Of a DNA stretch of 64,000 bases, positions 4,504-57,748 are shown one piece after another (positions within the stretch are counted from its first letter, which is position 1; each line of letters starts with the position of its first letter). A program made the position numbers and the translations under genes. The notes beneath the pieces were generated by a model. The model did not search any database, was not told where the DNA came from, and saw nothing but the letters and a program-made list of their open reading frames with translations. The stretch spans positions 1,240,001 through 1,304,000 of the forward strand of contig NZ_CP109190.1 in assembly GCF_041438805.1 (NCBI RefSeq), written 5' to 3'. Origin of the DNA: Streptomyces sp. NBC_01707. GTDB taxonomy: Bacteria; Actinomycetota; Actinomycetes; Streptomycetales; Streptomycetaceae.

Positions 4504-5094
4504 CGCGCCGCCCGGAGAGGGTGGCAAATGGCTTCAGTTCCCCACCCCGCGTCGTACAGGTTCTCCGGCCAGTGGGGACGAGATGACCAGTGGTCCGGCC
4601 GCCACATCTCCGCTGCTGTCGCCGAAGAATCGTGTCCCTGCCCGGGACGCGACGTGATTCCGGGGCCCCGGGGCCGGGAGCTCCACTGGCGTACACGCAC
4701 CGCAGCATTCGCGTCATCCATGGAACGGCTCAACGGAACAACCTGCCTCGGCGACCTAGCATCCGTTGTCGTGACACACTCTCCGGCACAGTGTGTCGGG
4801 AAACAGCGCGCCGCGGACGAGCCGTACGCCGGACCGTGCAGAACAGGGCGCGTACCTCAACGGGCAAGAAGTATTGAGCGTCTGAGTACACCGCGGGATC
4901 GGTCCGGCGGAGGGACCGGTTGGCACGCGGAGGGACGAACGGGGTCTGCCGGTCGACGAACGAACAGCGCTCGCCGGCGCCTTCCGGCGCATCGCCGATA
5001 CCCCTTCGTCCCCACACCCGCCCCACTGACCCACCACGCGAAACCCCTCCTTGCACTGAGCACGGCGGGAACCAGACGAGAGAGAAGACCGCCC
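4504..5094. other. Long leader/intergenic region before dienelactone hydrolase
   Basis: About 590 bases. It contains a perfect 8-bp inverted repeat GACACACT (4773-4780) and AGTGTGTC (4790-4797) around a 9-base loop. The frame of the downstream hydrolase stays open through this region, but the upstream codons show no family similarity, so I do not extend the gene. No other gene is supported. Confidence 0.5.
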
Positions 5095-54512: not shown

Positions 54513-55064
54513 TCAGGGCCGGGCCCAGTTGCGCATCGCGGTGCGCGAGGCGAAGGCGGCCACGTCCTTGTCGAGCGGATCGTCCGTGTACTGGTGGATG
54601 CGCCAGGTCGCCTTGATACGTGGTTTGCCCGCGGTCACATAGTCGGCGATCCAGAGGCCGTCACCGGCGTACGACGTGGTGTCGTAATTCAGCCAGAAGT
54701 GCCGGTTGCAGTACAGCAGAACCCGGTGGTCCGGCCGGAGGCGCTTGACCTCGCGAATGAAGCGATCCTTCTCGGCGTTGGTCGCGCGCGTTCCGTCGCC
54801 GGTGGTCTCCCAGTCGACGGCCAGCAGGTCACCGGCCTTCTCCGGGGCCTTGCTCACGAAGTACTCCGCCTGCGCCGTGAGATTGCCCGGCCACAGGAAG
54901 TGGTAGAAGCCGACCACGCATGAGGCGTCCCTCGCCCGCTTCACCTGCGAGGCCAGATGTGGATTGACGTACGAACGGCCCTCGGTGGCCTTGATGAAAA
55001 CGAAGTCCAGTCCATCCGTGTCGAAGGACGACTGGTACGAGCTGACATCGACGCCGTGCAGCAT
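54513..55064 (-). CDS. GH25 muramidase (lysozyme) without signal peptide
   Basis: 183 residues from the ATG at 55064 with AAGGCGG upstream. The GH25 barrel starts at once, with HGVDVSSYQ (Asp6). Catalytic Asp84 and Glu86 lie in LLAVDWETT, and FIKATEGRSYVNPHL and WIADYVTAGKPRIKATWRIHQYTD complete the family pattern. It would cleave peptidoglycan. There is no export signal or wall-binding domain, as in phage endolysins, so it could be a prophage relic or use another export path. It lies beside the IS element and the tRNA scar. Confidence 0.9.
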   Translation of the reverse strand: MLHGVDVSSYQSSFDTDGLDFVFIKATEGRSYVNPHLASQVKRARDASCVVGFYHFLWPGNLTAQAEYFVSKAPEKAGDLLAVDWETTGDGTRATNAEKDRFIREVKRLRPDHRVLLYCNRHFWLNYDTTSYAGDGLWIADYVTAGKPRIKATWRIHQYTDDPLDKDVAAFASRTAMRNWARP

Positions 55065-55264
55065 GGGTTCCGCCTTCAAGTGGGCTCTTTGGTTCCGTTT
55101 CTCGTTCTGTACGTGCCCGCAGCCACCGGTACTCACCCGTCCCGCCCACCGCGCGCACTGACTTCCGGCCACCCGGAATAGGCACCGACGCCCAGAGGTT
55201 GGTGAAGCGGCGAGACCGCATTGCACACCGCACGCACCATCGGAAGGTCGGATCCATCCCTGAT
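55065..55264. other. Former divergent promoter region, now left flank of the IS element
   Basis: 200 bases between the GH25 start and the element. It ends CCTGAT, which I take as the insertion target. Before insertion it would have served both the GH25 gene and the reductase gene now at 57089. Confidence 0.55.
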
Positions 55265-55276
55265 CTTGCGTGGTAT

Positions 55277-55294
55277 CCCCGGCTTCAGCCGGGG
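55277..55294. repeat. IS left-end hairpin
   Basis: A perfect 7-bp stem with TTCA loop, 12 bases inside the left boundary. It is the expected TnpA recognition structure. Confidence 0.8.
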
Positions 55295-55360
55295 AGGGAA
55301 GCGCATCCATGGTCCGAAGGCGCGAAGCGCCGGAGCTCTCTGCGCTTGCAGGAGTGACGG

Positions 55361-55789
55361 TCAGGTAGGGCGCTTCTGGCCTTCGATGTACTGACGGATG
55401 ACGGTCAGCGGTGCGCCGCCGCAGGACCCGGCGAAGTAGGAGCGGGACCAGAAGACGGACCCCATGCCGATCCGGTTGATGCGGCCCGTGTACTCGGCGC
55501 GCAGGTAGCGGGAGCTGACTCCCTTGAGAGAGTTGATCAGCTTGGACAGGGCGACCTTCGGCGGGTAGTGCACCAACAGGTGGACGTGATCGGCCTCGCC
55601 GTTGAACTCTCGCAGCTCCGTCTCAAAGCTGACGCAGACCTCACGCATCACCTCTTCGCAGCGGCTGAGCATCGCGTCATCGAACACCCCGCGCCGGTAC
55701 TTCGTTACGAACACCAAGTGTGCGTGCAGGTTGTAGGCGACGTGACGCCCGGTTCGGATATCGGGATTTGGTTCCCACCGCGGTGACAT
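55361..55789 (-). CDS. tnpA: IS200/IS605-family Y1 transposase TnpA
   Basis: 142 residues from the ATG at 55789. The HUH metal motif is His68-Val-His70 in ADHVHLLVHYPP, and the single catalytic Tyr134 is in VIRQYIEGQ. The N-terminal HLVFVTKYRRGVF and the middle KLINSLKGVSSRYLR are standard. It cuts and joins single-stranded DNA at the hairpin ends. Its 5' end faces that of tnpB, 50 bases apart. Length and motifs are intact. Confidence 0.96.
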   Translation of the reverse strand: MSPRWEPNPDIRTGRHVAYNLHAHLVFVTKYRRGVFDDAMLSRCEEVMREVCVSFETELREFNGEADHVHLLVHYPPKVALSKLINSLKGVSSRYLRAEYTGRINRIGMGSVFWSRSYFAGSCGGAPLTVIRQYIEGQKRPT

Positions 55790-55839
55790 ACACCAAGCGT
55801 AGAATGTTCAGCGGAACCAGACCGAAGGGGGGTGGGCCG

Positions 55840-57054
55840 GTGATCCGCGCGTACAAGTTCCTCATGCGGCCCACCGTGGGCCAGACCGTCGCACTGACCG
55901 CGATGCTTGCCGATCACTGCTCCCTCTACAACGGGGCGTTGCAGGAACGCCGCGACGCCTACCGGCATGTGTCGAAGACGAGTGTCAAGTACGGGACGCA
56001 GTCGGCTCAGCTCAAGGAAATCAGGGCGTTCGACCCGGAGCGGCAGGGGCGGCGGTCGTTCTCCTCGCAGCAGGTCACGCTCCGCCGCCTGGACAAGGCG
56101 TTCGCCGCGTTCTTCCGCCGGGTCAAGTCCGGCGAGACGCCCGACTACCCCCGATTCCGGGGCGTCAACTGGTTCGACACGGTGGAGTTCCCGAAGGACG
56201 GCGACGGCTGCCGGTGGGACTCCACGCCGCACGACCTGGTCACCCGCGTCCGTTTCCAAGGTGTCGGGCACGTCAAGGTGCATCAGCACCGGGCCGTGAT
56301 CGGTAGGGTCAAGACAGTCAGCGTCAAGCGCGAGGGCCGCAAATGGTTCGTTGTGCTGACCGCCGAGCAGGAGCGGCCCGAGCCGCTGCCCGCGACGAGC
56401 AGCTCGGTCGGCATCGACCTGGGCATAGCGAACTTCCTCGCCGATTCCAACGGCGGGTTCGTGCCCAACCCGCGCCACGGCCGCACCAACGCGGCGAAGC
56501 TCGAAGCCGCACAACAAACTCTGTCGAAGTTCCCGCGTGTGCGCCGGGACAAGCGGTCGGCCAACCACCGACGGGCTGTCGAGAAGGTCGCCAAGCTGCA
56601 CGGGAAGGTCCGCCGACAGCGCGTTGATCACGCACATAAGACCGCTCTCGCTCTGGTGCGTGAGCACGGCTTCATCGCGCATGAAGACCTCAAGATCCGC
56701 AACATGACCAAGGCCCCCACGCCGAAGCACAACCCCGACCATCCGGGCGTCTTCCTGCCCAACGGGGCCGCCGCGAAGACCGGGCTCAACCGCTCGATCT
56801 CTGATGCCGGATGGGGGGTGTTCCTGACGATCCTGCACGCCAAGGCTGAAAGCGCCGGACGGGAAGTGATCGCCGTGGACCCCCGCAACACCTCCCGTCG
56901 GTGCCCCGAGTGCGGGCACACCGCCAAGGAGAACCGGCCCACACAGGACACGTTCCACTGCGTAGCCTGCGGCCACAGCGCGCACGCCGACACAGTCGGA
57001 GCTGTCAACGTTCTACGGGCCGGGCTGGTCCGTCGCGAAGCCCGACCGGCATAG
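55840..57054 (+). CDS. tnpB: RNA-guided nuclease TnpB
   Basis: 404 residues from the GTG at 55840 with AAGGGGGG upstream; earlier starts overlap tnpA. It has an N-terminal REC/WED-like part and the RuvC site: Asp193 in VGIDLGIANF, Glu282 in AHEDLKIRNM, Asp384 in AHADTVGAVN. The zinc ribbon has Cys355, Cys358, Cys374 and Cys377. All key residues are present, so nuclease activity is expected. TnpB uses a right-end RNA to cut sites next to the target motif and so keep the element in place. Confidence 0.96.
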   Translation: MIRAYKFLMRPTVGQTVALTAMLADHCSLYNGALQERRDAYRHVSKTSVKYGTQSAQLKEIRAFDPERQGRRSFSSQQVTLRRLDKAFAAFFRRVKSGETPDYPRFRGVNWFDTVEFPKDGDGCRWDSTPHDLVTRVRFQGVGHVKVHQHRAVIGRVKTVSVKREGRKWFVVLTAEQERPEPLPATSSSVGIDLGIANFLADSNGGFVPNPRHGRTNAAKLEAAQQTLSKFPRVRRDKRSANHRRAVEKVAKLHGKVRRQRVDHAHKTALALVREHGFIAHEDLKIRNMTKAPTPKHNPDHPGVFLPNGAAAKTGLNRSISDAGWGVFLTILHAKAESAGREVIAVDPRNTSRRCPECGHTAKENRPTQDTFHCVACGHSAHADTVGAVNVLRAGLVRREARPA

Positions 57055-57110
57055 CGAGAAGCCCCCTCGTTCACGAGGGGGAGGAGTCACGAAGATCGGA
57101 ATCATCGGAG
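56950..57110 (+). ncRNA. Predicted TnpB guide RNA (omega/reRNA), scaffold plus flank-derived guide
   Basis: Known TnpB systems make an RNA from the 3' end of tnpB through the right end; its last about 16-20 bases come from the flanking DNA. Here the scaffold would end at the right-end hairpin and AGGAGTCAC, and the guide would be the first bases of the reductase gene from 57091. The 5' limit is a guess. It is inferred from family biology, not a direct sequence signature. Confidence 0.5.
57062..57081. repeat. IS right-end hairpin
   Basis: A perfect 8-bp stem with TTCA loop, eight bases after the tnpB stop. It is followed by AGGAGTCAC, which ends the element. Confidence 0.8.
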
Positions 57111-57748
57111 CGGGCAACATCGGCGGCAACCTCACCAGGCGTCTCACCGCGCTGGGCCACGAGGTGTCGATCGCCAACTCCCGCGGCCCGCACACTCTCA
57201 CCGCGCTCGCCGAGGAGACCGGAGCGACCCCGGTCACCGCGGCGGAGGCGGCCGAGGGCGCCCGTGTCGTGGTCGTCACCATCCCGGTGAAGGCAGTCCC
57301 GAACCTGCCCGCCGGGTTCCTGAACGGTGCCGCGGAGGACGTCGCGGTCATCGACACCGGCAACTACTACCCGCAGCAGCGTGACGGCCGTGTCGCCGCC
57401 ATCGAGGACGGGCTGGCGGAGAGCAGGTGGACCGAGGAGCAGATCGGGCACCCGGTGATCAAGGCGTTCAACGGGACCTACGCGGATGATCTCCTCTCCA
57501 AGGCCCTTCCGAAGGGCAGCCCCGGCCGCCAGGCCCTGCCGGTCGCCGGTGACGATGCAGCCGCCAAGCAGATCGTGCGCGATCTCATCGACGAGCTGGG
57601 CTTCGACACAGTGGATGCGGGAGGTCTGGACGAGTCCTGGCGCCAGCAGCCGGGCACTCCCGTCTACGGCAACCAGGGCGACGCCGAGGCCATCGCGAAG
57701 GCGCTCGCCGCCGCCTCGCCCGAACGCACGGCGGAGTGGCGCGCCTGA
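57089..57748 (+). CDS. NADPH-dependent F420 reductase-like / NAD(P)-binding protein with start codon disrupted by IS
   Basis: The frame from 57089 encodes about 219 residues and begins directly with the Rossmann motif KIGIIGAGNIGGNLTRRL, then SIANSRGPHTL, VVVVTIPVKAVPNLP and VIDTGNYYP, typical of F420-dependent NADP reductase-like proteins. No ATG, GTG or TTG occurs upstream in frame; the first is GTG 57164, which would delete the nucleotide-binding loop. An ACG at 57089 replaces the original ATG, with GGAGG four bases upstream supplied by the IS end. Either ACG initiation gives weak expression or the gene is a pseudogene. The remainder is intact, so the insertion is probably recent. Confidence 0.85.
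   Translation, partial: TKIGIIGAGNIGGNLTRRLTALGHEVSIANSRGPHTLTALAEETGATPVTAAEAAEGARVVVVTIPVKAVPNLPAGFLNGAAEDVAVIDTGNYYPQQRDGRVAAIEDGLAESRWTEEQIGHPVIKAFNGTYADDLLSKALPKGSPGRQALPVAGDDAAAKQIVRDLIDELGFDTVDAGGLDESWRQQPGTPVYGNQGDAEAIAKALAAASPERTAEWRA

Follow-up and report, generated by a model that had tools for sequence, protein, structure and literature searches.

An IS605-group insertion that splits the start codon of a reductase gene in Streptomyces sp. NBC_01707

The 64,000-nucleotide stretch of Streptomyces sp. NBC_01707 DNA analyzed here (contig NZ_CP109190.1, positions 1,240,001 to 1,304,000; G000:C1:1240001-1304000 in our numbering), which we refer to as the window, carries an insertion sequence of the IS200/IS605 family directly in front of a gene for a reductase of the F420_oxidored family. 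Comparison with relatives that have the empty site shows that this element is inserted between the AT and the G of the reductase start codon. We propose, with a probability of about 0.8, that an IS605 insertion 3' of CCAT split the start codon and that the gene now most probably yields very little reductase or none. The CCAT used as the target belonged to the CC-ATG of the reductase, and an exact insertion without duplication kept AT on the left and left G to open the right flank, so that the start now reads A-C-G. The presumed native Shine-Dalgarno sequence is thereby stranded about 1.8 kb upstream, and GGAGGAGTCAC before the G is the normal right end of the element, which comprises a hairpin, the cleavage site, and what is presumed to be the scaffold of the TnpB guide RNA. 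A paralogue of the reductase may substitute for it. The coordinates of all features are collected in Table 1.

The evidence for the split comes from orthologues that lack the element. The reductase family was matched by protein search in 122 of 150 relatives, and 29 orthologue loci were fetched, in 27 of which we located the first codons (L030 and L032 had no motif match and were dropped). All 27 readable orthologues have ATG at the split position. The nearest empty-site relatives read ATCGGAAGGTCGGATCC-ATG-AAG-ATC-GG; the left flank in the window is the same up to GGATCCAT and then continues with CCCTGATCTTGCG, and the right flank resumes at GAAGATCGG, which gives the order GGATCCAT, element, GAAGATCGG. 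When the two flanks are joined, the 28 bases of the junction are identical to those of L015 and L016 and differ by one base each from those of L018, L022, and L023. A divergent GH25 gene, which served as a synteny marker, adjoins the reductase in four of the five relatives tested (L016, L018, L022, and L023) and was not found beside it in the fifth, L015. Because the syntenic empty-site orthologues have ATG at this position, we conclude that the element is inserted between the AT and the G of the start codon. It is extremely improbable that the arrangement is an artefact of assembly or annotation and that the gene never began at the split: draft assemblies are common among the relatives, but the orthologues that can be read agree without exception, both flanks match syntenic relatives, and the contig that holds the window is 9.6 Mb long, in a genome of 9.9 Mb.

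A previous reading of this DNA, made from the sequence alone, had already proposed that an IS605-type element splits the reductase ATG, and the empty sites bear this out. That sequence-only reading placed the element at 55265-57090 and joined TGAT to the right flank. Its right end agrees with ours, but its left end is 7 bp short, the true start being 55258: the heptamer CCCTGAT (55258-55264) belongs to the element, as it recurs at the left ends of other copies that have different flanks, and 14 copies outside the window's own genome, which are 79-83% identical, align across bases 1-1833. The empty site is CCAT^GAAG rather than TGAT^GAAG. The restored ATG survived the wrong boundary, since TGAT and CCAT share their last two letters and either junction gives ATG; the empty-site homologues contradict the earlier junction in its letters and agree with it in the split ATG.

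The ends of the element are well defined by its other copies. Among 40 identified left ends, CCAT stands directly before 27 and before a further 8 in which the end carries one extra C, and it is thus present in 35 of the 40 left flanks; one other copy has a different NCAT and four have something else. Of 57 copies whose right ends were placed by alignment rather than by motif, 56 close with the octamer GGAGTCAC and one with GGGGTCAC. Such placement covered 57 of 60 loci, with the exclusion of L180, which meets a contig end, and of L207 and L213, which did not align to base 1833. In the sets of 133 and 161 copies considered below, right ends were found by motif-seeded searches, so that their uniformity is partly built in. 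The element encodes a Y1 TnpA and, beside the divergent tnpA, a TnpB; it has predicted subterminal hairpins at both ends (z-scores with RNA parameters of -3.16 for 57060-57090 at the right end and -1.49 at the left end, which is weaker evidence), and a fixed short motif lies 5' of the insertion with no duplication, the joined flanks being equal to the empty site of L015 and L016. Judged by these features, the element is an ordinary member of the IS605 group of the IS200/IS605 family. From its family we infer that it transposes as a single strand by a peel-and-paste route, and its TnpB is assumed to be an RNA-guided nuclease that uses a right-end guide RNA. Since a sister copy at G000:C1:723637-725469 differs at only 9 of 1833 positions, the comparison suggests that the insertion is fairly recent.

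Other copies vary in length and arrangement. Shorter relatives (L159, L169, L170, and L174 among them) have 1.4-1.5 kb between their ends, with the same right end and CCAT, and match the tnpB half of the query alone, so they look like tnpB-only elements. Two copies in the window's own genome, L003 and L005 at G000:C1:631991-634040, look nested, in that the left flank of one is a stretch of the other; the nesting point is a CCAT site within about 210 bp of the other copy's left end.

Table 1. Positions of the element, the split start codon, and neighboring features in the window
Feature	Position	Strand	Evidence or remark
IS200/IS605 element, 1833 bp, 3' of CCAT	55258..57090	+	Empty sites; alignable copies
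Target and left cleavage motif CCAT in left flank; AT = letters 1-2 of former ATG	55254..55257	+	
GGAAGG, presumed native Shine-Dalgarno sequence of reductase, now left of element	55242..55247	+	Same string before ATG in L015, L016, L018, and others
Left-end hairpin TCCCCGGC-TTCA-GCCGGGGA, predicted	55276..55295	+	Fold of 55258-55320
tnpA, Y1 transposase	55361..55789	-	PF01797 E 4e-41; NF033573 E 1.3e-41
tnpB, RNA-guided endonuclease family	55840..57054	+	NF040570 E 5.1e-77; OrfB_IS605, Cas12f1-like_TNB
Right-end hairpin CCCCCTCG-TTCA-CGAGGGGG, predicted, 8 bp, -16.9 kcal/mol	57062..57081	+	Fold
Right end GGGGGAGGAGTCAC, Shine-Dalgarno-like	57077..57090	+	Alignment-defined ends of copies
ACG in place of orthologues' ATG (AC element-derived, G gene-derived)	57089..57091	+	
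Reductase, F420_oxidored family, frame intact	57091..57748	+	PF03807 E 6e-21; orthologue L015 89% identical
In-frame ATC, 8 nt behind AGGAG, keeps GIIGAG loop; possible near-cognate start (inference)	57095..57097	+	
Divergent GH25 gene, synteny marker	54513..55064	-	PF01183 E 2.3e-41; ATG at 55064

The reductase frame is open upstream to a TAG at 56963-56965, and between this stop and a GTG at 57164 there is no in-frame ATG, GTG, or TTG. The sequence-only reading had noted that none of these codons precedes GTG 57164, together with the ACG directly behind GGGGGAGGAG, and both observations are confirmed. A gene caller restricted to ATG, GTG, and TTG would begin the reductase at GTG 57164, without its cofactor loop, which is a warning for annotation. 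The frame also holds codons that had not been listed before, namely CTG 57002 and ACG 56984 and 57008 upstream and ATC 57095 in the gene. Low-level translation could in principle begin at ATC 57095, with the loop kept, or at CTG 57002, with a product 29 residues longer, both of which are within the open frame. We consider this unlikely, as AUC and CUG are weak bacterial starts, and by eye no Shine-Dalgarno sequence is evident before CTG 57002.

A different possibility is that the reductase is usefully translated from the ACG by means of the GGAGGAG that the element brought with it, in which case its start region would have been replaced, not knocked out. The predicted pairing of GGAGGAGTCAC with the anti-Shine-Dalgarno sequence is indeed strong, at -10.6 kcal/mol compared with a median of -7.1 in the 27 orthologues (both computed with an assumed 16S rRNA 3' end), but the distance to the ACG is only 2 nt (4 nt when the best match at that minimum spacing is taken), where the orthologue median is 7, and the run of G lies inside the predicted right-end hairpin, with an unpaired probability of ≤0.05 predicted for 57074-57081 in a longer fold. 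No lesion interrupts the reductase frame, and the arrangement GGAGGAG-TC-ACG is present at split starts in three other genomes (G268, G380, and G398; see below), with an intact frame in G268, whereas the G380 gene is frameshifted and the same GGAGGAG end occurs whether or not the insertion site is a start. A reporter study in E. coli placed ACG in a group of codons (with TTT, GTT, and TAA) of 0.1-1.5% relative efficiency; it gives 26-33% for some other nonstandard codons, so the numbers need care, and some product was still obtained there from strains whose pathway genes began with ACG (PMC6925171). Taken together, useful translation from the ACG is unlikely.

Because the right end is uniform across the family, the GGAGGAG before the reductase belongs to the end of the element and did not arise in response to the site, and GGAGGAGTCAC is the element's normal right end rather than a recruited ribosome site. 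The sequence-only reading had left the choice between a start-codon knockout and natural ACG initiation driven by a Shine-Dalgarno sequence on the element. We favor a knockout or strong knock-down, since the GGAGGAG is a family end that is partly taken up by a predicted hairpin and stands close to an ACG, a codon among the weak ones in the E. coli study; the earlier reading gave the ribosome site too much weight. Several observations count against our preference. The pairing energy is stronger than that of the orthologues, the intact frames of the reductase and of the hydrolase gene in G268 would fit continued use, and a lesion is present in only one of the three proven split genes that can be assessed, the window included, although with 9 differences in 1833 from its sister copy the insertion may be too young for decay. 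Some weak initiation from ACG or AUC may also take place. A paralogue in the same genome (L010, G000:C1:9375770-9376426), which is 73% identical and has an ATG start, may cover for the split reductase.

The reductase is not the only gene split in this way. An automatic start-codon test was passed by 9 of 161 unique copies, and for three of these, all in other genomes, the orthologues of the split gene have ATG at the split. In G268, the gene is for an alpha/beta hydrolase (orthologue 89% identical), its frame is intact, and the left flank is absent because the insertion lies at a contig start. In G398, it is for a protein kinase (orthologue 81% identical); the left flanks are also alike, and the gene runs off the contig. 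In G380, it is for a solute-binding protein (orthologue 88% identical over the first 100 residues, with the left flank not compared in detail), and the split gene is frameshifted relative to orthologues (L239/L275, G380:C44), which in this draft assembly is either decay or an assembly fault. The four proven split starts thus comprise two intact frames (the window and G268), one frameshifted gene (G380), and one that cannot be assessed (G398). Across 392 genomes, a strict right-end pattern followed by ACG was matched 63 times, in 38 of them, and the same pattern followed by ATG, which would be a restored start, was matched in none, a search that covers one form of reversal and exact right ends alone.

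Four of the nine copies were set aside. At L061, the Pfam match begins at profile position 174 of 345, which makes the insertion gene internal; L131 and L254 were judged by eye to be gene internal as well, and L200 has a further ATG four codons downstream. In G383, the case of a short chain dehydrogenase gene (L139) is unproven, with no close orthologue in 50 other genomes and best matches of about 45-52% identity. L048 (LysE family) and L133 passed only a first, looser listing. The loss of kinase homology in G398 was considered as a lesion and rejected, since L299 and L130 end at the contig end and show no lesion.

Recurrent splitting raises the question of whether the family seeks out start codons, with CCAT^G targeting and a built-in ribosome site that together provide a harmless seat before genes. 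The four proven split starts would fit this, as would the base preference at position +1: in 133 unique copies (a set in which at least one end, that of L050, + strand, 156, is doubtful), the base is G in 77 (58%), C in 25, A in 22, and T in 9, and G is more frequent than at 5,002 CCAT sites (2,141; p 0.0007). These 5,002 sites, taken from the fetched loci and the window, constitute a null that ignores selection, and the codon model applied is a simple one. However, a +1 base preference is a known property of TnpA (PMC5934647). Where the left flank is known, 4 of 36 insertions are start-like compared with 199 of 5,002 sites (p 0.055), but when the right flank alone is used, without the upstream criterion, the values are 10 of 161 and 481 of 5,002 (odds ratio 0.62, p 0.17), and the 161-copy set includes sites picked for G at +1, which would inflate the start-like count. 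The right flank is classed as noncoding or antisense in 120 of the 161 copies; noncoding right flanks are in excess (73 versus about 43 expected), and those that are sense coding in the AT-N frame are deficient (21 versus about 45 expected). Split starts are not clearly commoner than chance CCAT sites predict, and we regard a family that seeks start codons as very improbable. Three further copies in the window's own genome (L002, L003, and L004) all carry G at +1, from which a frame is open, and this had suggested systematic start targeting; the wider sample classed the right flanks of L002 and L003 as noncoding and that of L004 as antisense, and with no clear excess this interpretation was abandoned. 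In a separate observation, L177 (+ 4255) and L200 (- 4252) are inserted at CCAT^G shortly before the GGAGGA..ATG of another gene, whose start is apparently intact.

What the splits would mean is easier to see beside known elements. ISDra2 of Deinococcus radiodurans, another member of the IS605 group, resembles the window element in having TnpA and TnpB, a target motif that ends in AT, and a preference for G at +1. It inserts 3' of TTGAT, with about 90% TTGAT|G (PMC5934647), whereas the window family targets CCAT and has G at +1 in 58% (77/133) of copies. IS608 of Helicobacter pylori similarly keeps a tetranucleotide in its left flank and has subterminal hairpins and a separate right cleavage motif, which is TCAA in IS608 and would by analogy be TCAC, the last four bases of the right end, in the window element. 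Its target is TTAC with C preferred at +1 (about 70% TTAC|C; PMC5934647). Targets of IS605-type elements that end in AT and are followed by G (CCAT^G here, TTGAT^G for ISDra2) overlap start codons, so that clean splits can arise as a repeated side effect of insertion. Among the titles listed from the open-licence literature, none dealt with IS605 elements that split start codons or with the CCAT family itself. IStrons, which combine a group I intron with an insertion sequence, face the same problem when they insert inside a gene (PMC4227781), but they splice out of RNA, while for the window element no group I intron is indicated, as the stretch 54800-57800 matches nothing in Rfam at E values up to 1.

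Each split gene gains the same GGAGGAGTCACG leader, and the split genes therefore form a natural series for measuring nonstandard initiation. One might go further and suppose that the GGAGGAGTCAC end turns split CC-ATG starts into a Shine-Dalgarno sequence plus ACG, giving low, graded expression, with guide RNA and messenger RNA in one transcript. We think this improbable; the ATC 8 nt behind AGGAG, for its part, belongs to the window copy. The guide RNA of ISDra2 TnpB consists of the right end plus about 16 nt of flank (PMC8612924), and if this layout holds in the window element, the guide would be the first reductase codons. The presumed guide (57091-57110) differs from the start of the paralogue L010 at a single position, and the motif at the paralogue is TCAT instead of CCAT. 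This pair would lend itself to a test of whether TnpB targets its own genome.

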